From Sphingomonas sp. 67-36 (GTDB lineage Bacteria > Pseudomonadota > Alphaproteobacteria > Sphingomonadales > Sphingomonadaceae), in assembly GCA_001897375.1 (NCBI GenBank), contig MKSU01000002.1, positions 155,040 through 219,039 on the forward strand: DNA of 64,000 nucleotides, given 5' to 3'. The position numbers and the translations under genes are program-made. Shown in pieces: positions 14,273-25,140 of this stretch (the stretch's first letter is position 1; each line of letters opens with the position of its first letter). The notes under the pieces are model-generated. The model searched no databases, was not told where the DNA came from, and was given only the letters and a program-made list of their open reading frames with translations.

Positions 14273-14419
14273 GGGTGCCAATTACTGGCCAACGAGCAGG
14301 CGCGTTTTTGCTCAGAGCTCCGCAAAGCCGGGCTTGTTGGTCGACGTGCCATTGTGGCATTTGCCCTGTGGCGGCTTTACAATGACCCTGCCGAGACTGG
14401 CCGCGTCGAGGAGGTTTTT

Positions 14420-14818
14420 ATGAAAGCCGCGTTTGTCGCTTTGGCATTGATGTGGCCAGCATCGGCTTACGCATCCAGCCCGGACAAGTTCGGTGAAATT
14501 TGCGTTGGTACCGAGACGATCTCGAGCGAAAAACAACCCGAGAAAATGGTTCCATATTCAATGACATTCAGCATTGACCTTGCCTCGGGTCATTATTGCT
14601 ACGCGGAATGTAAGGCTTGGCAAACCCACAAGATCAGCGATGCCACCTCCAACCCGATAAAGCTTGCCGATGTGCGTGGCGCTCCCACTGAGCGTTTACT
14701 GACTTTCGATCGCCGGACAGGAAAGTTAACCGACCATCAGGTCGTCACCCTGTTTGGCAAAGTTGAAGGATTTACCACGGCGACTTGCCAGGCAGCGCCC
14801 TTTCACGCGCCTGATTGA
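14420..14818 (+). CDS. Exported protein of unknown function, lower GC
   Basis: A 132-residue protein with a clear signal peptide (MKAAFVALALMWPASAYA) and an excellent GAGGAGG ribosome-binding site. The mature part has three cysteines (EICVG, HYCYAEC) plus one near the end (TATCQA), suggesting disulfides. No family is recognised. Base composition from about 14275 to 14818 is visibly lower in GC than its neighbours, suggesting acquisition. The 147-base gap before it holds no other feature. Confidence 0.75.
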   Translation: MKAAFVALALMWPASAYASSPDKFGEICVGTETISSEKQPEKMVPYSMTFSIDLASGHYCYAECKAWQTHKISDATSNPIKLADVRGAPTERLLTFDRRTGKLTDHQVVTLFGKVEGFTTATCQAAPFHAPD

Positions 14819-15328: not shown

Positions 15329-15615
15329 GCCGCCTCGCCGGGTGCGAGGGCGCGGATGGCGAGCGCGTGGACGTGATCGCGCAGCAGCTCGGCCAATGCC
15401 TGGTTGACCAGCCGCTGCCGCTGGACGCGCGACTGGCCGGCGAAGGCGGCGCTCTCCACGACGACGCGGAAGTGGCTCTCGCCCGATCCGTCGTCGCCCA
15501 TATGGCCGCGATGTTGCGCGCTCTCGTTGATAACATTGAGGCGCGTCGGGGCGAGCGCGGCGGTGAGCCGGGCGGCGATTTCACGGGCGACGGGGCCGGT
15601 GGCGATATCGGTCAT
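15325..15615 (-). CDS. BolA family protein
   Basis: A 96-residue BolA-fold protein. The block NVINESAQHRGHMGDDGSGE contains the conserved histidine, and the FRVVVESAAFAGQSRVQRQR segment is the helix-turn-helix-like part of the family. BolA proteins partner monothiol glutaredoxins in iron-sulfur handling. It faces the J-domain gene across a 24-base gap, so the two promoters overlap. In alphaproteobacteria bolA next to a J-domain gene and cobST is a recurrent neighbourhood. Confidence 0.93.
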   Translation of the reverse strand: MTDIATGPVAREIAARLTAALAPTRLNVINESAQHRGHMGDDGSGESHFRVVVESAAFAGQSRVQRQRLVNQALAELLRDHVHALAIRALAPGEAA

Positions 15616-15639
15616 CGTCCCTATATAGCGGGCTTTTCC

Positions 15640-16254
15640 GTGAAAGGCTCGGGACTGGTGCGCGAAAGGAAGGAACGACCGAACACGCGCTTTCACGGCC
15701 GGGTCGCGGGCGATCGCCCGTGCTCCGCGCCGGGCTGCGCCGAGCCGGGCGAGTTTCGCGCGCCGCCGCCCGAGGGCGTGGGCGGCGGCTATGACGGGCC
15801 GCCGGCGTTCCGCTGGTTCTGCCTCGATCATGTCCGCGCGTTCAACGCCGGCTATAATTATTTCGAGGGCATGAGCGCCGAGGAGATCCACGCCGCGCAA
15901 CGCCCGATCGCCGGGTGGGAGCGCGAGGCGCGGGCCTTCGCGCGCGCCGGCACCGATCCCGGCCCGCGCTGGGCGGATTTCGCCGATCCGCTCGACGCGA
16001 TCAGCGCGCGCTTCCGCCGCGAGACCCCGCCCGAGCGCAAGGACGGCAAGCCGCTGTCCGGGCAGGACCGCGCGAGCCTGAAGGTGCTGGGGCTGGAGCC
16101 GGACGCCGATCGCCACGCGCTGCGCCGCCGCTATTCGGAGCTGGTCCGCCGCTACCATCCCGATCGCAACGGCGGGGACCGCAGCCACGAAGGCACGCTG
16201 GCGAAGGTGATCGCGGCCTATCAGCAATTGCGGCAGGCGCCCGCCTTCGCCTGA
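15640..16254 (+). CDS. J-domain (DnaJ-like) protein
   Basis: A 204-residue protein whose last 65 residues form a J domain (LKVLGLEPDADRHALRRRYS) with the HPD motif at residues 173-175. The N-terminal part has cysteines in CSAPGCAEPGEF and FCLDH that may bind metal, and a conserved YNYFEGMSAEEIH segment. It stimulates a DnaK-type ATPase and has its own client domain. Start is GTG 15640. It is divergent from bolA; its usual downstream partner cobS lies 5 kb away. Confidence 0.93.
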   Translation: MKGSGLVRERKERPNTRFHGRVAGDRPCSAPGCAEPGEFRAPPPEGVGGGYDGPPAFRWFCLDHVRAFNAGYNYFEGMSAEEIHAAQRPIAGWEREARAFARAGTDPGPRWADFADPLDAISARFRRETPPERKDGKPLSGQDRASLKVLGLEPDADRHALRRRYSELVRRYHPDRNGGDRSHEGTLAKVIAAYQQLRQAPAFA

Positions 16255-16257
16255 GGG

Positions 16258-16917
16258 CTATCCCTCGCGCTTCATCCGTTCCTGCCGCGCCTTCTCGCGC
16301 TCGCTCGGCTCGCTGAGCTGGAAGTCGCCGATCGGCACCGCGCCCGCCGGCTCATAGGTGGCGATCGTGACGCCGGTGGTCGACACCCGATGCTCGACGA
16401 GCCTCAGCGCGAAGGGCGGGGTGCCGGGGCCGAACAGCCGCTTGCCCGCGCCGAGCACCACGGGGAATGTCATCACGAACAGCCGGTCGACCAGCCCCGC
16501 CGCGAACAGCGCGGGATACAGGGTGGTGCTGCCCTGGATCAGCAGGTCCGGCCCGTCGGACGCCTTGACCGCCGCGACCTCCTCGATGCTGGCGACGCGG
16601 CGGCTGTTCCGCCACTCCAGCGGATCGTCGCCGCGCGTCACGACGAACTTGGTCACGCCGTCGAACAGCGCACCCATCGGATCGTCCGCCCCGACATAGG
16701 GCCAGTGCGCGGCGAATATCTCCCATGTCTTGCGGCCGAGCAGCAGGTCGAACGGGCCGCCGAACATGCCGCCCATCGCCTGCCCCATCATCTCGTCCCA
16801 GAATGTCGCCGACCAGCCGCCGAGCGTGAAGCCGCCGGTCCAGTCCTCGCTCGGCCCGCCCGGCGCCTGCATCACGCCGTCGAGCGACTGGAACACCCCG
16901 CCGACGAGCTTACGCAT
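16258..16917 (-). CDS. Dihydrofolate-reductase-fold protein (RibD C-terminal-like)
   Basis: A 219-residue protein of the DHFR/RibD-C family. Visible features are [20 protein letters not shown], the LLLGRKTWEIFAAHWP block (nucleotide loop), the core RRVASIEEVAAVK segment and the late VLGAGKRLFG motif. These are NAD(P)H-dependent reductases of unknown substrate in most genomes. The C-terminus is highly charged (EREKARQERMKREG). It is the last gene of the seven-gene operon driven away from the HxlR gene. Confidence 0.92.
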   Translation of the reverse strand: MRKLVGGVFQSLDGVMQAPGGPSEDWTGGFTLGGWSATFWDEMMGQAMGGMFGGPFDLLLGRKTWEIFAAHWPYVGADDPMGALFDGVTKFVVTRGDDPLEWRNSRRVASIEEVAAVKASDGPDLLIQGSTTLYPALFAAGLVDRLFVMTFPVVLGAGKRLFGPGTPPFALRLVEHRVSTTGVTIATYEPAGAVPIGDFQLSEPSEREKARQERMKREG

Positions 16918-17392
16918 CAGCTGCCTCCGTCAGGTGGCGCGCCACTTCCTCAAGCTGGTCGGCGCAGATGCCCCAGCCCTCGGCGAAGCCCATCTCGTCA
17001 TGCGCTTTCGTATCGGCGGCGTTCCAGTGGCGCGCGCTGGCGCGATAGGCGGTGCGGCCATCGGGCGCATCGGCGAGCGTGAGCATGCCGACGATCGCCA
17101 CCGGCTGCGCCGCCTGCGGCGCCCAGCCTTCGCCGAGCGCGTTGGTGAAGACGATCCGCTCATTTGGCACCACCTCCAGCAACATGCCATCGCCGCCGTG
17201 CACCTCGCCCTCCGGCCCGTGCATCGCGAGATGGAAGCGCCCGCCCGAACGCCATTCCAGCGCGATGATCTCGGTCCCCCACGGACGCGGGCACCACCAT
17301 TCGGCGAGGTGATCGGTCATCGCCCGCCACACCGCGTCGCGCGGCGCGTCGATCACGCGCTCGATCGCCAGCTCGTTGTCGGCGCTGTTCAC
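16910..17392 (-). CDS. SRPBCC / START-like domain protein (AHSA1-type)
   Basis: A 160-residue START/Bet-v1 fold protein. The N-terminus ([18 protein letters not shown]) and the HPCPW-type loop around [10 protein letters not shown], then [13 protein letters not shown], match the AHSA1 branch, which binds hydrophobic ligands. GTG start 17392 overlaps the upstream stop (GTGA), and its own end overlaps the next gene by eight bases. It is coupled within the HxlR-linked operon. Ligand unknown. Confidence 0.9.
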
Positions 17393-17883
17393 GCGGTGAT
17401 CTCCTCGCCGCGCCGCGCGCGCTCGATCGCGGCGATGTCGATCTTGCGCATCGTCATCATCGCCTCGAACACGCGCTTCGACACCGCCGGATCGGCGTCG
17501 CCCATCGCATCCATCAGCACGCGCGGCGTGATCTGCCACGAATAGCCCCAGCGATCCTTGCACCAGCCGCAGGCGCTTTCGGCGCCGCCCTCGCCGACGA
17601 TCGCGTTCCAGTAGCGATCGGTTTCCTCCTGCGTCTCGGTATGGACGATGAAGCTGACCGCCTCGTTCGGCTTGAAGTTCGGTCCGCCGTTCAGGCCCAT
17701 GAAGGGCTGGCCGAGCACCGTGAAAAGCACGGTCAGCTCGCTGCCCTTCGTCCCGCCGGGGAAATCGGACGGCGCGTCGTTCGCCTGCTCGACATGGCTG
17801 TCGGGGAAGGTGCGGGCATAGAATTCCGCCGCCTTGCGGGCTTCGCCGTGGTCGAACCAGAGGCAGGTGCGCATCTTGATCAT
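17389..17883 (-). CDS. VOC/PhnB-like (3-demethylubiquinone methyltransferase-like) protein
   Basis: A 164-residue protein of the PhnB/glyoxalase-like group. It starts [20 protein letters not shown]; the middle has [18 protein letters not shown] and the end has [11 protein letters not shown], as in the 3-dmu-9 methyltransferase-like family. It has a single beta-alpha-beta-beta-beta module and lacks the paired metal glutamates of glyoxalase I. Part of the HxlR-linked operon. Function unknown. Confidence 0.92.
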
Positions 17884-17895
17884 CGTTCCTCTCCG

Positions 17896-18675
17896 TTACT
17901 TGCGCGGCCCGACGAGGCCGATCTGGAAGCCGTGCGCGTCGGATACGTTGGCGGAATAGTCGCCGCCGGGAATCGGATCGGGGCCCTGGATCAGCGCGCC
18001 CTGATGCGCCTTGGCCGTTTCGATCGCGGCGTCGATGTCGGGGACGTGGACGTACCAGTTCCACCGCGCCGGCGCGCCGCTCAGGCTGCTCGACATCACC
18101 GCGCCGGGACGGAAATCCGCGCCCTTGCCGATGAAGGCATAGTCGCCCATCTCGCCCATCGGCATCGCGCCGGCCTTCTCCCAGCCGAACAGCGCGCCAT
18201 AGAAGGCGAACGCACCGTCCGGGTCCGGCGTCGCCAGCTCGACCCACACGCCATGCCCGATCGCTCCCGGCGCGGCGGCGAAGGCGCGCGAGCCTGCGGG
18301 GTCGGCGCCGGTCAGCAGGTTGAAGCCGATGCCTTGTGGATCGCTCACCGCGGCGAAGCGGCCGACATGCGGGATGTCCATCGGCCCGAAATGGACCGCG
18401 CCGCCCAGCTCCTTCACCCGCGCGGCCGCCGCGTCGACGTCCGCCACGCCGAAATAGACCGTCCAGCCGACCGGCGAAGGGGCGCCCGGCGGCGGCGCCA
18501 TCAGCCCCGCGATCCGCTCGCCGTCCGGGGCGGTGGCGATGCGATAGCCGCCGTGTTCGGCCATCGCGGAGGGCGCGATCGTCCAGCCGGCGACATGCCT
18601 GTAGAAATCCTGCGATTCGTCCGGGTCGGGCGTGGTCAGCTCGAACCAGACTGGCGTGCCTTCCATGTTGCTCAT
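17896..18675 (-). CDS. Tandem VOC (glyoxalase/bleomycin resistance-like) protein
   Basis: A 259-residue protein made of two VOC domains. The first starts near residue 6 (PVWFELTTPDPDESQDFYRH), the second near residue 140 (GVWVELATPDPDGAFAFYG), and each ends with a SDPQGIGFNL or SDAHGFQIGL segment. The duplication gives one ligand pocket within a single chain. Members bind hydrophobic or antibiotic-like molecules. It lies in the HxlR-linked operon; no specific substrate can be read. Confidence 0.93.
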   Translation of the reverse strand: MSNMEGTPVWFELTTPDPDESQDFYRHVAGWTIAPSAMAEHGGYRIATAPDGERIAGLMAPPPGAPSPVGWTVYFGVADVDAAAARVKELGGAVHFGPMDIPHVGRFAAVSDPQGIGFNLLTGADPAGSRAFAAAPGAIGHGVWVELATPDPDGAFAFYGALFGWEKAGAMPMGEMGDYAFIGKGADFRPGAVMSSSLSGAPARWNWYVHVPDIDAAIETAKAHQGALIQGPDPIPGGDYSANVSDAHGFQIGLVGPRK

Positions 18676-18685
18676 CGTCGCTCTC

Positions 18686-19390
18686 CTAGGCGTGGCGGGT
18701 GTCGAGGATCGGGGCGAACCCGCCGAAGATCGCGAGCTGGCCGTTCCACGGCGGCGGATTGTCGCGCATCCGGCCGTCCTGCATCAGCGCGGCCATGCCG
18801 GCGTCGCGCGTCGCCTTGTCGGGCCATTCGATCCAGCCGAAGATCACCGTCTCGCCCGCCGGGGCCTGCACCGCGCGGCGGAAATCGGTGACCTTGCCAT
18901 CCGGCACGTCCGCGCCCCAGCCGTCCACCACGCGGGTCGCGCCATGATCGCGGAAGATCACGCCGATCGCGTGGGCAGTGTCGGCGAAGGCCGCGCGCTT
19001 GTCGTCCGGCACCGAGGCGAGGATGCCGTCGACATAGCCGAACGGCCCTTCCGTTCCGCTTTGATAATCCAGATCATAGCCGCCGTAGATCATCCGTCGC
19101 GTGTCGAACGGTGCCGGCGTTTCAGGCGGGGTCATCTTCGTCGCGGCGGCGTCGCAGGTCGCGCGGTCGGGCCATTCGACCCACGCGAAGACGACCTCCT
19201 CATCGTCGGCGGCGTTCACGGCGCGGCGGAAATCGGTGTTCTTGCCGATCATCACGTCGTCGCCCCAGCACTCCACGATGCGTGTCGCGCCAAATTCGGT
19301 GAAGCCCGGGGCGACCATCGCGGCGAAATCCCGATAGGCGGCCTGATCGCCGCGCTTCACCGGCACGACGAATCCCTGGAAATAGCTCAT
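18686..19390 (-). CDS. Fused tandem DUF1428 protein
   Basis: A 234-residue protein composed of two DUF1428 modules, each about 115 residues. Repeat 1 has GATRIVECWGDDV and TDFRRAVNA; repeat 2 has GATRVVDGWGADV and TDFRRAVQA, and both carry VEWPDRAT/IEWPDKAT. Single DUF1428 proteins are dimeric alpha-beta barrels, so the fusion makes an internal dimer. Start at ATG 19390. It is the middle of the HxlR-linked operon. Function unknown. Confidence 0.92.
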   Translation of the reverse strand: MSYFQGFVVPVKRGDQAAYRDFAAMVAPGFTEFGATRIVECWGDDVMIGKNTDFRRAVNAADDEEVVFAWVEWPDRATCDAAATKMTPPETPAPFDTRRMIYGGYDLDYQSGTEGPFGYVDGILASVPDDKRAAFADTAHAIGVIFRDHGATRVVDGWGADVPDGKVTDFRRAVQAPAGETVIFGWIEWPDKATRDAGMAALMQDGRMRDNPPPWNGQLAIFGGFAPILDTRHA

Positions 19391-19401
19391 GGTTCGGCTC
19401 C

Positions 19402-20055
19402 TCAGGCGGCTGCGGGCTGGTCGAAGGTGGCGAGATGGTCGGCCATCGCCTTGCGGTGCGCCGGCCGCGCCTCGCCGCGCGCGACATAGGCGGCCAGGCG
19501 CGGGAACCGGTCGAGCACGCCGGTGCCGCGCAAGCCGCCCAGCACCGACACCATCATCAGGTCGCCGACGGTGAATTCGTCGCCGTCGAGCCATTGCCGG
19601 TCGCCGAGCGCATTCTCCAGATCGGCGAGCCGGCCGTCGAGGTCCGCCACCACCTTGTCATGCCGCATCGCGGACCACGGCCGGTCCGCCTCGAACATGT
19701 CGTTGACCGCCAGCGCCATCACCCACGGCTCGACCGAATTGAGCGCGGCGACCAGCCACTGGATCGCCCGCGCTCGCGCCGCCGGATCGGCGGGCACGAG
19801 CTTCCCCGCCTTCTCGCAGATGTGCAGCACGATCGCGCCGGATTCGAACATCTCCAGTTCGCCGTCGCGATACGCCGGCACCTGCCCGAACGGCTGGAGC
19901 CGGCGATGCTCCGGCCCCTTGGCGTCGGCGATCAGCACCGCCTCATAAGGCTGGCCGACCTCCTCGCACGCCCAGCGCGGTCGGATATCGCGGACGAAGC
20001 CGCGCGCGAACTCCGGCACCCAGCCGAAGGTGATGATCTGTGGTTTGTCCGGCAT
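19402..20055 (-). CDS. Glutathione S-transferase family protein
   Basis: A 217-residue GST-like protein. The thioredoxin-like N-terminal half ends with GQVPAYRDGELEMFESGAIV, containing the cis-proline VP and the ES-A glutathione motif; the C-terminal half is all helical (WLDGDEFTVGDLMM). Start chosen at ATG 20055, which has AAGGA nine bases upstream; an in-frame ATG six codons earlier exists. It is second in the HxlR-linked operon and probably conjugates or reduces an electrophile. Confidence 0.93.
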   Translation of the reverse strand: MPDKPQIITFGWVPEFARGFVRDIRPRWACEEVGQPYEAVLIADAKGPEHRRLQPFGQVPAYRDGELEMFESGAIVLHICEKAGKLVPADPAARARAIQWLVAALNSVEPWVMALAVNDMFEADRPWSAMRHDKVVADLDGRLADLENALGDRQWLDGDEFTVGDLMMVSVLGGLRGTGVLDRFPRLAAYVARGEARPAHRKAMADHLATFDQPAAA

Positions 20056-20085
20056 CTCTCTCGTCCTTGTCATCCGCGCGACGGT

Positions 20086-20511
20086 TCAGCCGTTGACCGG
20101 CGCGAGCGCCTGTTCGGCCGCCGCCATGTCCATCCAGAACGGGCCGAAGCCGTGGCCGTCGAGATCCTCGAACGCGCGGCTGTACATATAGGGCTCGTTC
20201 TCCGGATCGTGCAGCTCACGCCCGCCCGCGGCGAGCGCCGCTTCGGTGATGGCGTCGACCGCGTCGCGGCTGTCGAACGACAAAGCGATCAGCGCGCCGC
20301 TGCTCTTCCTGGCGTCGATGATCTTCTTGTCGGTGAAGGTGGAATAGAAAGCATGGTCGAGCAGCATGAACCCGATCGTGTCGGACCATTCCATCGCCGA
20401 TGCGCGGTCGTTCGAGAAGGTCGGATTCCGCTTCATCCCGATCGCCTCGTAGAAGGCGGTCGACTTCGCGACATCGGCCACCGGCAGGTTCACGAAAATC
20501 ATCTTTGCCAT
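20086..20511 (-). CDS. VOC family protein (PhnB/lactoylglutathione lyase-like)
   Basis: A 141-residue single-module VOC protein. It starts MAKMIFVNLPVADVAKS and carries AFYEAIGMKRNP and the end block FEDLDGHGFGPFWMDM. AGGAGAG precedes the ATG. As the first gene of the minus-strand operon it faces the HxlR gene across 65 bases that contain the HxlR-type operators, so it is the most directly regulated. Ligand unknown. Confidence 0.93.
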   Translation of the reverse strand: MAKMIFVNLPVADVAKSTAFYEAIGMKRNPTFSNDRASAMEWSDTIGFMLLDHAFYSTFTDKKIIDARKSSGALIALSFDSRDAVDAITEAALAAGGRELHDPENEPYMYSRAFEDLDGHGFGPFWMDMAAAEQALAPVNG

Positions 20512-20559
20512 TGGAAACTCTCCTATTTCGAATCGGTGCTTGCGATGGGTGCGCTCCAA

Positions 20560-20597
20560 GGTTACAAAAAGCAACCATGAAGTTAGAAAAAGTGACT
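20560..20597. promoter_or_regulatory. Two phased HxlR-type operator copies
   Basis: Copy 1 (20560-20576): GGTTAC-AAAAA-GCAACC, one mismatch from perfect dyad, ending exactly at the HxlR start codon. Copy 2 (20581-20597): AGTTAG-AAAAA-GTGACT, a weaker version inside the first codons. The copies are 21 bases apart, two turns of the helix. They sit in the divergent promoter of the HxlR gene and the VOC-to-DHFR operon. Confidence 0.68.
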
Positions 20598-21275
20598 GAA
20601 GGAAGCAAGGCGACGACGAAGCGTTGGTATGATGACGCCTGCGGCACCGCGCTGGCGATGGAATTGGTCGGCGAGCGCTGGGCGCTGCTGATCGTGCGCG
20701 AACTGATGTTCGGCGCGCGCCGCTTCGGGGAGCTGAAGGCGTCGCTCACCGGGATCAGCGCCAATGTGCTGACGCAGCGGCTGGAGGGGCTTGAGAAGGC
20801 CCACATTCTGAAGCGCCGCAGGCTGCCGCCGCCCGCCAGCGTGCAGGTCTATGAACTGACGCAATGGGGTTATGAGGCGGAGGACGCGATCAAGGCGCTC
20901 GGCGCATGGGCAGCGCGCTCGCCGGATCATGACCCGACGCTGTCCTTGTCCTCCGCCTCGATGATGCTGTCGCTGCGCACGATGATCGACGTGGAGAAGG
21001 CGCGCAAGCTGCCGCCGATGACGATCGGCTTCACCTTCGGCGCCGAGTCGTTCGTCGCGCGGCTGGCGGATGGCGCGCTGCCGATCGCGCGCGGCGAAGG
21101 CGAAACCGATGTGCATTTCGCCACCAACGCGCGGTTCATGGCCAATATCGTCTATGGCAAATGGCCGATCGAGGAAGCCGAGGCGGAAGGCGCGCTGGTG
21201 TTCGGCGGCGACCGGGAAAAGGCGCGCGCCTTCATCGACCTGTTCGCGCTTCCGCCCAAGGCAGAGGTTGAATAA
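20577..21275 (+). CDS. HxlR-family winged-helix transcriptional regulator
   Basis: A 232-residue regulator. Residues about 20-110 form the HxlR winged helix ([19 protein letters not shown], then [13 protein letters not shown]). The extra C-terminal 110 residues ([12 protein letters not shown] onwards, with [15 protein letters not shown] near the end) are longer than a minimal HxlR protein and resemble an SCP2-like ligand domain. It likely senses a small ligand and controls the divergent seven-gene operon and itself through the operators overlapping its start. Confidence 0.95.
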
Positions 21276-21322
21276 CGGGTGCCGCCGCGCTTAAGGCGTG
21301 TGCAAGATTCCGCGAGGCGCGC

Positions 21323-22327
21323 ATGACCGATATTCCGAACACCCAGCCCGACAGCCGCGAGACGACGATCCTCGACGCGCCCGACAAGATCATCAGCGTC
21401 CGCGAGATGTTCGGCATCGACAGCGACATGGAATGCCCCGCGTTCAGCGAGGCGGACGAGCGTGTGCCCGATCTCGACCCCGCTTATGTATTCGATCCGG
21501 ACACGACGCTGGCGATCCTCGCCGGCTTCGCGCACAACCGCCGCGTGATGGTGCAGGGCTATCACGGCACCGGCAAGTCGAGCCATATCGAGCAGGTCGC
21601 GGCGCGGCTGAAATGGCCGTGCATCCGCATCAACCTCGACGCGCATATCAGCCGCATCGATCTGGTGGGCCGCGACGCGATCGTGCTGCGCGACGGCCAG
21701 CAGGTGACGGAGTTCCGCGAGGGCCTGCTGCCGTGGGCGCTCCAGACGCCGACCGCTCTGGTGTTCGACGAATATGATGCCGGGCGCCCGGACGTGATGT
21801 TCGTGATCCAGCGCGTGCTGGAGACGGAGGGCAAACTCACCCTGCTCGACCAGAATCGCGTGATCCGGCCGAACCCGTATTTCCGCCTGTTCTCCACCGC
21901 CAACACCGTCGGCCTCGGCGACACCAGCGGCCTCTATCATGGCACGCAGCAGATCAACCAGGGCCAGATGGACCGCTGGAACATCGTTGTCACCCTGAAC
22001 TACCTGCCGGCAGCGACCGAGGCGCAGATCGTGCTCGCCAAGTCCGGCGAATATGACAAGCCGGAGGGCAAGAAGGTGGTGGACAACATGGTCCGCGTCG
22101 CCGACCTGACCCGCAAGGGCTTCATCAACGGCGATATCTCCACCGTGATGAGCCCGCGCACCGTCATCACCTGGGCGCAGAACGCGCTGATCTTCAAGGA
22201 TGTCGGCTTCGCCTTCCGCCTGTCTTTCCTCAACAAGTGCGACGAGGCGGAGCGGCCGCTGGTGGCGGAATATTACCAGCGCGTGTTCGGCAAGGACCTG
22301 CCCGAAAGCGTGGTCGGAAGGGCCTGA
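21323..22327 (+). CDS. cobS: CobS-like AAA+ ATPase
   Basis: A 334-residue AAA+ protein of the CobS family. Walker A is GYHGTGKS (residues 79-86), Walker B is [10 protein letters not shown], and sensor-type segments [11 protein letters not shown] follow. In cobalamin-making bacteria CobS and CobT power the CobN cobaltochelatase. No cobN or other cob gene is present here, only cobT 1 kb downstream, so a cobalamin-independent MoxR/vWA role is plausible. In many alphaproteobacteria it follows a J-domain gene. Confidence 0.94.
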
Positions 22328-22350
22328 CCCCACCGTTCATGGGGTGACGA

Positions 22351-22388
22351 AAAAAGGGGCGGCGTCCTTTCCGGCGCCGCCCCTTTTT
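22351..22388. terminator. Bidirectional terminator between cobS and the PEP-CTERM gene
   Basis: GGGGCGGCG (22356-22364) pairs with CGCCGCCCC (22375-22383), flanked by an A run before and a T run after. It can end transcripts from cobS on the plus strand and the PEPxxWA gene on the minus strand. Confidence 0.9.
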
Positions 22389-22413
22389 CAGTGATCGGTC
22401 GTGAGATCGCCGG

Positions 22414-22992
22414 TCAGGCGAGCCGCACCTTGGCCGAGACCCGGCGCTTGCCGCGCATCGCCACGCCGACCGCCCCGAAGCCGAGGATCATCAGCGCCCA
22501 GGTCGCCGGTTCCGGCACGCCGCCGGCGATCGCCCGCACGACGAGCGATTCGTTATAGCCGTTGCCCGTGTTCCACGGAACCTCGCCGAAGCCGCAGGCA
22601 GAGCCGGGTGCGTTGCACCAGTCGCCATGATCATATGAGCTGAAATAGGCCACGGCGAGCGCTGCCGCCGAATCCAGCGTGGGCGCGGTATAGGCGAAAT
22701 ATACGCCGCTGACCGGATCCGTGCCGCCGAGCGGAACATTGGCGCCGGCAAACATGAAATCCATCGCGCTTGGCGCGTTGAGCAGTTCCTGCGCCGTCGG
22801 CAGACGCCAGCCGAACTGCGACTGATAGCTGAGGTCGACGCTGGATTGATCGAGCGGCGAGGCCCAGGCCCATTGCAGCCCACCATAGTTGATCGTCGCA
22901 TTGGTCGGCACCGGCGCGTTCAGCGACGCGGCGCTCGCCGGAAGTGCGAGCGCGGCGATGGCGGCGGCGCTCGCGAGCATCAAGGACTTCAT
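22414..22992 (-). CDS. PEPxxWA-CTERM sorting domain protein
   Basis: A 192-residue exported protein. A signal peptide (MKSLMLASAAAIAALALPAS) starts it and a PEPxxWA-CTERM tail ends it (VPEPATWA from about residue 159, a hydrophobic helix, then RGKRR). The middle has LPTAQELLNAP and a cysteine pair (DWCNAPGSACGF). This tail is recognised by the exosortase/PEP-CTERM surface system of sphingomonads. Start at ATG 22992 with GGGGAAGG upstream. It splits cobS from cobT. Function unknown. Confidence 0.93.
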   Translation of the reverse strand: MKSLMLASAAAIAALALPASAASLNAPVPTNATINYGGLQWAWASPLDQSSVDLSYQSQFGWRLPTAQELLNAPSAMDFMFAGANVPLGGTDPVSGVYFAYTAPTLDSAAALAVAYFSSYDHGDWCNAPGSACGFGEVPWNTGNGYNESLVVRAIAGGVPEPATWALMILGFGAVGVAMRGKRRVSAKVRLA

Positions 22993-23310
22993 GGACCTTC
23001 CCCTGTTGCCTGCGATCATGACGGCACAATCGGCAGGTAAATGACACCACCGCTACCGGCAAATGCCGATCGCGACCTAAACGTTGACGAAGACCCGGAT
23101 GGTTTGTTTTACCCAGAACGCGGCCGAAGCGAATCAACATCGTTCTTAATGACATATTAAGCAATTATCGGTCGTGCGCAAGCGATCGCGGCGGGCGTCT
23201 CATGTCCCGGATTGGCACGGATCGCGGCGATATCGTCGATGCGCGCGGATATCGCCTCGACGGGGGCAGCGGTCTTGTGCGCCCCGCCGCGATGGTCCTA
23301 AAGCCGGGAC
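22993..23310. promoter_or_regulatory. 318-bp intergenic region with inverted repeats
   Basis: No coding gene is supported here. It holds the promoter side of the PEPxxWA gene and of cobT. A perfect dyad CTTAAT-GACAT-ATTAAG lies at 23145-23161 and a shorter one CGGC-AAAT-GCCG near 23060. Both could be regulator sites; the first is AT-rich in otherwise GC-rich DNA. Confidence 0.4.
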
Positions 23311-25140
23311 ATGGCTGAACGCACCCCGCTCGATCTGTTCAAGGACGTGCTCGGCGGCACGGCGCGCGCGCTGGCCGACGAGCCGGAGGTGGAGCTGGCC
23401 TTCACCGCCGATGCGCCGGCGCAGTCGGGCAAGCATCTCAAGGTGCCGATGCCCGCCCGCGCGCTGCCGGCGGAGCAGGTGGCGGAGGCGCGCGGCTTCG
23501 CGGACAGCTTCGCGCTGCGGCTCAGGCACCACGACCCCGCGCTGCACCTGCGCGCCGCGCCGCACGAGGCGGTGGCGCGCGCGGTGTTCGACGCGGTGGA
23601 GAATGCCCGCGTCGAGGCGCTCGGCAGCCGAGGCTATGCCGGCATCGCCGACAATCTGGCGACCGCGCTCGACGTGAAACTGCGCGCCGACCCCATCACC
23701 CGCGCCCGCACGCGCGAGGAGGTGCCGCTTTCCACCGCGCTCGGCCTGATCGTGCGCGAGCGGCTGACCGGTCGCGCGGCGCCGGCGGCGGCGGCCCCCG
23801 GCCTCGCGCTGGTCCGCGACTGGATCGACGAGAAGGCGGGCGCCGATCTCGATTCGCTCGCGCTCGCGCTGGACGACCAGCGCGCCTTCCAGAGCCTCGC
23901 GAGGAAGTTGCTCGAGGACCTCGAGCTGACGCAGGGCGACGAACTGCCCGAGGACAGCGAGGACAGCGATAGCGAGGACGAGGGCGCCGACGATCAGGAG
24001 AATGACGAGAAGGGCGATCAGGACGAGGACGGCGAAGGGCAGGGCGAGGCGCAGGTAGAGGCGCGCGGCGAGCAGCGCGATGCCGAGAACGAGGACGGCG
24101 AAGGCCAGGAAATGGGTGACGACGTCCAGGACATGGACGGCGAGCCGGGCGACGAGGGCGAGGAGGGGATGCAGCCGGTGCGCCCCAATCGCCCCTTCGC
24201 CGATCTTTCCCCGCAGTTCGACTATCGCGTCTGGACCACCGACTTCGACGAGGTGATCGCGGCGACCGACCTGTGCGACGCCGACGAGCTGGTGCGGCTG
24301 CGCGCCTATCTCGACCAGCAGCTCGTCCACCTGCAATCGGTGGTGTCGAAGCTCGCCAACCGGCTCCAGCGCCGGCTGATGGCGCAGCAGAGCCGCTCGT
24401 GGGATTTCGATCAGGAGGAAGGGCTGCTCGACGCGGCGCGGCTGGCGCGCGTGGTGGTCAGCCCGGACATGTCGCTTTCATACAAGATCGAGCGCGACAC
24501 CGAGTTCCGCGATACCGTGGTGACGCTGCTGATCGACAATTCCGGATCGATGCGCGGGCGGCCGATCTCGATCGCGGCGATCTCCGCCGACATCCTCGCG
24601 CGCACACTGGAGCGCTGCGGGGTCAAGACCGAGATTCTCGGCTTCACCACCCGCGCGTGGAAGGGTGGGCAGAGCCGCGAATCCTGGCTCGCCGCCGGCC
24701 GCCCGCCGCAGCCGGGGCGGCTCAACGATATCCGCCACATCGTCTACAAGAAGGCCGATGAGCCGTGGCGGCGCGCGCGCACCTCGCTCGGGCTGATGAT
24801 GCGCGAGGGGCTGCTCAAGGAGAATATCGACGGCGAGGCGCTGATGTGGGCGCACGCGCGGCTGGTCGCGCGGCCGGAGGAACGGCGCATCCTGATGGTG
24901 ATCTCGGACGGCGCGCCGGTCGACGATTCCACGCTCAGCGTCAATTCCGGCTCGTATCTGGAGCGGCATCTCCGGCAAGTGATCGACTGGATCGAGAAAC
25001 GCTCGCCGGTCGAGCTGGTGGCGATCGGCATCGGCCATGACGTGACGCGCTATTACACCCGCGCGGTGACGATCATGGACGTAGACCAGCTCGGCGGCAC
25101 GATCATCGAGCAACTCGCCGCGCTGTTCGACACGCCGTGA
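23311..25140 (+). CDS. cobT: CobT-like von Willebrand A domain protein
   Basis: A 609-residue protein of the CobT family. The N-terminal part is helical; residues about 210-285 are a very acidic low-complexity stretch (repeated ED/GE); the C-terminal vWA domain has the metal-binding DNSGS motif at residues 409-413. CobT partners CobS in cobaltochelatase, or in MoxR/vWA-type chaperone pairs when cobN is absent, as here. Its stop overlaps the next GTG by four bases. Confidence 0.94.

Follow-up and report, generated by a model that had tools for sequence, protein, structure and literature searches.

A putative chemical-stress cassette beside cobS in Sphingomonas, with its own HxlR-SCP2 regulator and a predicted twin operator

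We analysed a 64,000-nucleotide stretch of the genome of Sphingomonas sp. 67-36 (the window; contig MKSU01000002.1), in which seven minus-strand genes lie divergent from one HxlR-family regulator gene, the set being bounded by a J-domain gene and cobS. The eight-gene arrangement lies where an earlier note, made from the sequence alone, had put it, and all of the genes were confirmed with Pfam. The regulator gene (20577-21275, plus strand) encodes an HxlR-family protein with a C-terminal SCP2-fold domain (about residues 121-232), as judged from Pfam, AlphaFold2, Foldseek and alignments. On the minus strand, the first gene of the divergent operon encodes a single-domain VOC protein (20086-20514, ATG at 20509-20511). 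It is followed by genes for a glutathione S-transferase (GST) family protein (19402-20055), a tandem DUF1428 protein (18686-19390), a tandem VOC (Glyoxalase/VOC) protein (17896-18675), a PhnB-like VOC-fold protein of the 3-dmu-9_3-mt family (17389-17883), an AHSA1/SRPBCC protein with a GTG start (16910-17392) and a putative RibD_C/DHFR-fold reductase (16258-16917). The two DUF1428 halves (18799-19304) share 75% DNA identity over 158 nt, and relatives carry one or two copies. Start codons were chosen by us, the mechanical open reading frames (ORFs) being longer for several of the eight genes. With these starts, the genes of the run from the reductase to the VOC gene are spaced by -8, -4, +12, +10, +11 and +30 bp, and a single terminator-like site, within VOC coding sequence, was found in 15600-21500 versus 3.0 expected in shuffles. 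Because the gaps are short and such sites scarce, the run fits a single operon. The Pfam assignments are consistent with the earlier remark that all of the products have small folds for ligand binding or reduction, and those recurrent extra genes of relatives that were examined resemble them in kind. None of the eight proteins matched an NCBIfam model above its cut-off. A role in anti-phage defence was considered and rejected: PADLOC models matched 0 of the 8 proteins.

The intergenic region shared by the regulator and the operon is 65 bp long (20512-20576). It contains promoter-like elements oriented towards HxlR (-35 TTGCGA at 20540-20545, a 17 bp spacer and -10 TACAAA at 20563-20568) and, for the VOC gene on the opposite strand, a ribosome site of GGAG type; a generic promoter scan found no promoter in the region. 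We aligned the start region of the window with those of the best 80 named loci of a scan for similar loci elsewhere, which include Microvirga, Skermanella, Paracoccus, Pseudaminobacter, Agaricicola, Brevundimonas, a Brucella-group species and a Lysobacteraceae strain. Across these 81 sequences the conserved columns are TTTG at -38 to -35 and GTTA..AAAAA at -16 to -7, with 17 bp to TAnnAA, and would represent the HxlR promoter. A motif resembling a Shine-Dalgarno (SD) sequence precedes HxlR in only 1 of the 81, and because of this and of the spacing of TTTG, 17 bp and TAnnAA, the comparison suggests that the HxlR mRNA is leaderless.

The start of the HxlR gene is nearly invariant: GTTA-N7-CAAC runs up to the ATG, and a second copy follows in the first codons. 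We describe both as predicted operators of the form GTYA-N7-YRAC, a pattern first seen in the window and 44 loci and then counted in all 81 sequences. Operator O1, GTTACAAAAAGCAAC (20561-20575, plus strand), overlaps the apparent -10 element, and O2, GTTAGAAAAAGTGAC (20582-20596, plus strand), lies inside HxlR codons 2-7, 21 bp from O1. O1 matches in 75, O2 in 69 and both in 64 of the 81 sequences, and where both match, the start-to-start distance is 21 bp in 63 of 64. A strict, 36 nt version of the twin pattern matched 14 times in 249 genomes of the family versus 0 times for the reversed pattern used as control. Thirteen of these sites lie 16-22 bp before the start of an HxlR match (the offset of 22 bp, in G169, arises because the match there begins at residue 3), and the fourteenth, on contig C2 of G303, lies at a truncated HxlR. 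Within its own genome of 4.0 Mb, O1 alone matches the strict single-site pattern exactly; the reversed control likewise has 1 match there. The earlier claim that HxlR controls the cassette is thus strongly supported at the level of sequence, by a conserved twin operator that lies partly within the shared promoter region and partly next to it. Neither this operator nor the SCP2-fold domain nor the probable leaderless start figures in the earlier note.

The position of O2 within the coding sequence is reflected in codon usage. Codon 3 of HxlR is TTA in all 69 cases in which it encodes leucine, as opposed to 14 of 1971 leucines in codons 8-220, and A/T third positions make up 358 of 486 in codons 2-7 but 2999 of 17253 in later codons. 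The first codons therefore appear to be under constraint at the DNA level, dictated by the operator rather than by protein function. The opposite explanation is that the conserved N-terminus (MKLEKVT) is a feature of the protein, for instance a DNA-contacting arm, and that the second DNA repeat is its by-product. Residues 1-7 are indeed well conserved in the protein alignments, and N-terminal arms are possible in HxlR-type proteins. We nevertheless regard this explanation as very improbable: at 14 other conserved leucine columns of HxlR, CTG is favoured in 13 and CTC in 1, whereas TTA is fixed at codon 3; two loci (L205 and L242) keep both sites although in-frame stops fall in O2; O1, which lies upstream of the gene, has the same form; and residues 1-13 are modelled with a predicted local distance difference test (pLDDT) score under 50.

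The regulator itself combines two domains. The HxlR Pfam domain scores 69.3 bits against a gathering threshold of 20.8. We built three alignments, comprising the window protein with those of 30 of 44 HxlR loci, of 55 of the 80 named loci and of 45 of the 80. The AlphaFold2 model of the whole protein (56 sequences) has a mean pLDDT of 87.7, and its winged-helix fold resembles those of YodB, HypR and HxlR in Foldseek (5hs7_A, TMt 0.84; 4a5m_A, 0.88). Foldseek matches to the whole model, given without the part matched, are YodB, HypR, HxlR, SCP2 proteins and alkylsulfatases. Residues 121-232 modelled alone (46 sequences) reach a pLDDT of 92.1, and each of the 45 PDB entries they match with E 0.001 or better is an SCP2-type protein or an alkylsulfatase; these include an SCP2 with bound palmitate (1pz4), human SCP-2L with a ligand (1ikt) and UbiJ (6h6p, TMt 0.68). 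Searched with Pfam at E 0.05, the 46 C-terminal halves match Alkyl_sulf_C in 39 and SCP2 in 32 cases, with relatives reaching E 3.4e-8 and 5.2e-9; the window protein scores 21.6 bits for Alkyl_sulf_C against a gathering threshold of 27. A profile search of PDB sequences gave only weak matches, the best an alkylsulfatase (0.015) and SCP2 at 0.24, with ZO-1 chains between. By these models the C-terminal domain is of the SCP2 fold.

Two parts of the protein could take part in sensing. Cys22 is invariant in all 56 aligned HxlR-SCP2 proteins, and the SCP2-fold domain is retained in all of them, with R172, Y193 and G211 invariant. Cys22 precedes GER (34) by the same distance as Cys11 of HxlR precedes GGK (23) in the peptide given in PMC7835342. 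According to that paper, formaldehyde sensing by HxlR requires Cys11 and Lys13, and in other members of the family the conserved Cys11 is reported to act as a sensor of electrophiles or oxidants. The regulator might respond only to thiol-reactive electrophiles such as quinones and aldehydes through Cys22, in the manner of YodB and HypR, with the SCP2-fold domain being structural. The invariance of Cys22 and the reports on Cys11 would fit this, YodB is the best match among solved structures by sequence (HypR and HxlR being among the 16 matches), and a GST and reductases suit electrophiles. On the other hand, the SCP2-fold domain is kept throughout with its invariant residues, and the regulator does not have the Cys-Lys pair seen in HxlR. 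We hold an electrophile-only sensor to be possible though doubtful; it overlaps with the idea of a switch for both kinds of compound, and the two are not exclusive shares of one total. Sensing of the formaldehyde type was rejected, as the sequence C22-G23-T24 lacks a Cys-X-Lys pair. Most likely the regulator is a dedicated, autoregulated switch for a lipophilic or electrophilic compound, as far as sequence and models indicate.

The history of the locus was traced through the neighbourhood of cobS. In 12 of 24 genomes of the same order a J-domain match lies 56-154 bp from cobS (G037, G038, G039, G043, G047, G048, G049, G050, G054, G056, G058 and G059, the match being weak or partial in G048, G050 and G054); in the remaining 12, no J match adjoins cobS among the matches listed. 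No cassette gene lies between the J-domain gene and cobS in the four same-order genomes that were read (G038, G039, G047 and G058). Within the genus we surveyed the cobS neighbourhoods of 36 relatives (G001-G036), leaving out one without a cobS match (G015) and two that were unreadable, with the cassette on a short contig (G007) or cobS at a contig end (G020). Among the 33 that remain, HxlR adjoins cobS in 24, three are empty at cobS (G017, G018, G024), and six lack HxlR but retain one or two genes of the cassette type (G001, G010, G013, G014, G025, G036). At the level of the family, HxlR is found at E 1e-25 or better in 111 of 249 genomes. For 67 of the 110 besides the window's own, cobS is among the matches listed, the other 43 being excluded; HxlR lies within 3 kb upstream of cobS in 42 of the 67, on the same strand in all 42, while the two are far apart in 11 and on separate contigs in 14.

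Because the J-domain gene adjoins cobS in half of the same-order genomes, the cassette is an insert relative to that arrangement, though on this gene-order comparison an old one. Its presence at cobS in relatives of the genus and family, as against the J-cobS adjacency in the order, suggests that the cassette probably entered this slot a single time, at an early stage of the family, and that the unit was later eroded or moved. A recent insertion was rejected on the same counts (24/33 and 42/67). The signs of a recent genomic island that were looked for, namely strain-specific presence, a break in composition and a tRNA at the edge, were not seen, and integrases were not searched. The guanine and cytosine (GC) content has no clear break at the cassette, and no tRNA lies at its edge, the sole tRNA-like call in the window (16873-16965, without an assigned amino acid) falling within coding sequence. 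No convincing pair of direct repeats borders the insert; one candidate (D3, 21 nt, 81%), which links the J-domain gene with the end of HxlR, seems fortuitous. The earlier note had taken the cassette for an accessory unit inserted between the J-domain gene and cobS, unless it proved ancestral by occurring there in relatives. The insertion stands, and the gene-order comparison shows it to be neither private nor recent, so that the ancestral alternative largely applies.

Whether the genes form a unit beyond this site was assessed in those 64 of the 80 named loci that have 6.9 kb or more to either side of the HxlR homologue. The seven families gave 261 locus-family matches on the divergent side: single-domain VOC in 59 loci, PhnB-like in 48, DUF1428 in 44, tandem VOC in 38, GST in 29, AHSA1 in 26 and RibD_C in 17. 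All 261 are on the strand opposite to HxlR, while the other side has a single match (GST); the divergent arrangement is therefore not due to chance. Of the 17 loci counted from outside the sphingomonads, 16 contain VOC and 12 PhnB; AHSA1 and DUF1428 each occur in 4, and tandem VOC, GST and RibD_C each in a single locus. Stretches without cobS (G132, G145, G274, G288, G295) still have the same families divergent from HxlR, and the unit also occurs without cobS in the stretch in Microvirga, Paracoccus, Brevundimonas and Lysobacteraceae loci. In rough single-linkage clusters over 124 loci, further recurrent genes are an extra VOC (29), DUF899 (15), a second GST (11) and YCII (6); one representative of these extra genes also contains a DoxX_2 piece. 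Five loci (L162, L195, L196, L199, L205) have an extra AHSA1 gene between HxlR and cobS. On contig C2 of G303 (415576 region; L306), a truncated HxlR of 63 aa lies beside VOC (70%), GST (69-71%), part of DUF1428 (71%) and tandem VOC (40%), and looks like a decaying second cassette.

These counts also bear on a simpler account, in which loosely related housekeeping detoxification genes lie by cobS by chance and HxlR regulates only itself. Such an ordinary neighbourhood would agree with HxlR being in place in most readable relatives of the genus, with the free variation in gene content, and with the six of nine relatives without HxlR that keep one or two cassette-type genes. It sits poorly with the strict strand bias and with the divergence of the same families from HxlR away from cobS, and we consider it unlikely.

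The whole is best explained, we think with fair probability, as an old, movable chemical-stress cassette that reshuffles its genes and is governed by a dedicated HxlR-SCP2 switch. Two HxlR-SCP2 dimers would sit at O1 and O2, roughly two turns of the helix apart and on one side of the DNA, and, if the protein is a repressor, would shut off the divergent operon as well as its own leaderless transcript. The dimers would be freed from the DNA by a lipophile bound in the SCP2 pocket, an electrophile at Cys22, or both, and the operon products may then bind, conjugate or reduce the inducing compound, which would give the cassette a role in detoxification. The regulator-operator module would have stayed intact over time as individual member genes disappeared, moved or gave way to others.

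Several observations weigh against this explanation. The strict twin pattern has only 14 matches for 111 genomes with HxlR, the sites in other copies being variable; seven loci have no plain start at the corresponding alignment position, and five of these do not show the twin pattern in full. In the window's own genome four sites have one mismatch, O2 being one of them, and up to two mismatches give 37 sites there versus 66 in the control. The SCP2 score of the window protein, 14.4 bits, is below the gathering threshold of 21.3, and Thr24 takes the place of the formaldehyde-sensing Lys13. No HxlR was found at E 1e-25 in 138 of 249 family genomes, and the fused HxlR-SCP2 profile matches at that threshold in only 16 of 289 class-level genomes (two being the window's own and G010), spread over 11 of 223 genera. 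Gene replacement within the cassette is suggested by pairwise distances, which are concordant among J, cobS and cobT (rho 0.62-0.83) and much less so between HxlR or the cassette genes and cobS (0.11-0.35); bolA, a control, gives 0.54 versus cobS and tandem VOC versus J also 0.54, and because a second control, a nudix gene, is as low against cobS (0.15) as the cassette genes, saturation may contribute to these values.

A wider regulon was looked for in the same genome and is not visible, because the matches at up to two mismatches are fewer than those of the control.

The flanking genes have features of their own. The J-domain gene (15643-16254, plus strand, start approximate, by Pfam) precedes the reductase gene. 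cobS (21323-22327, plus strand; TIGR01650 above cut-off) begins 47 bp past HxlR on the same strand and could be reached by read-through from the HxlR promoter, because the gap is so short and has no terminator-like site. cobN (TIGR02257) was not found in the genome, which is 99.99% complete, by a model that detects it in 5 of 14 control genomes; for lack of this match, cobS and cobT (21323-25140) may not serve cobaltochelatase here. A PEP-CTERM protein gene (22414-23019, minus strand) lies between cobS and cobT, and in some relatives cobT directly follows cobS. Elsewhere in the window, an ORF of 154 aa without a Pfam match (14354-14818) lies in a low-GC dip (0.54-0.56) adjoining a nudix gene.

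More tentatively, and at less than even confidence, HxlR-SCP2 proteins might form a distinct class of one-component sensors for lipophilic toxicants (quinones, sterol- or fatty-acid-like compounds, antibiotics), with the twin operator built into their own leaderless start codons. Promoter, operator and regulator would then be a self-contained module into which changing ligand-binding genes are plugged, and which could move between alphaproteobacteria and beyond. The locus offers a concrete candidate switch for common and poorly explained small proteins (DUF1428, PhnB/3-dmu-9, AHSA1, tandem VOC), and the ligand of one such regulator, if found, would hint at what these proteins do as a set in many bacteria of soil and plants. 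Operator DNA that apparently dictates first codons can also mislead the annotation of start sites and codon-based analyses.

The literature searched contained no paper on an HxlR-SCP2 regulator or on this cassette, and the closest comparisons are with HxlR/DUF24 regulators. YodB, HypR and HxlR of Bacillus subtilis share with the cassette regulator the winged-helix fold and the conserved N-terminal cysteine, and have, as here, a short palindromic site beside their target genes; the YodB-type operator is a 4-N7-4 site. The cassette regulator is unlike them in its SCP2 domain, which their solved chains of 110-131 residues do not have, and in carrying Thr24 where the HxlR formaldehyde sensor has Lys13. 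We know of no regulator of the YodB/HypR/HxlR kind with an operator inside its own codons. The C-terminal domain matches the SCP2, alkylsulfatase C-terminal and UbiJ-SCP2 fold in all 45 Foldseek matches, but here it is fused to a DNA-binding domain, its binding of a lipophile is putative, and the window protein is below Pfam gathering. Clusters of the ECF41/ECF42 and ArsR/SRPBCC types, with YCII/DGPF, VOC and SRPBCC genes, likewise place similar small ligand-binding families beside a dedicated regulator. The class of regulator and the operator differ, and no sigma factor gene is among the cassette genes. The cassette belongs to a known kind, that of locally regulated chemical-stress operons.

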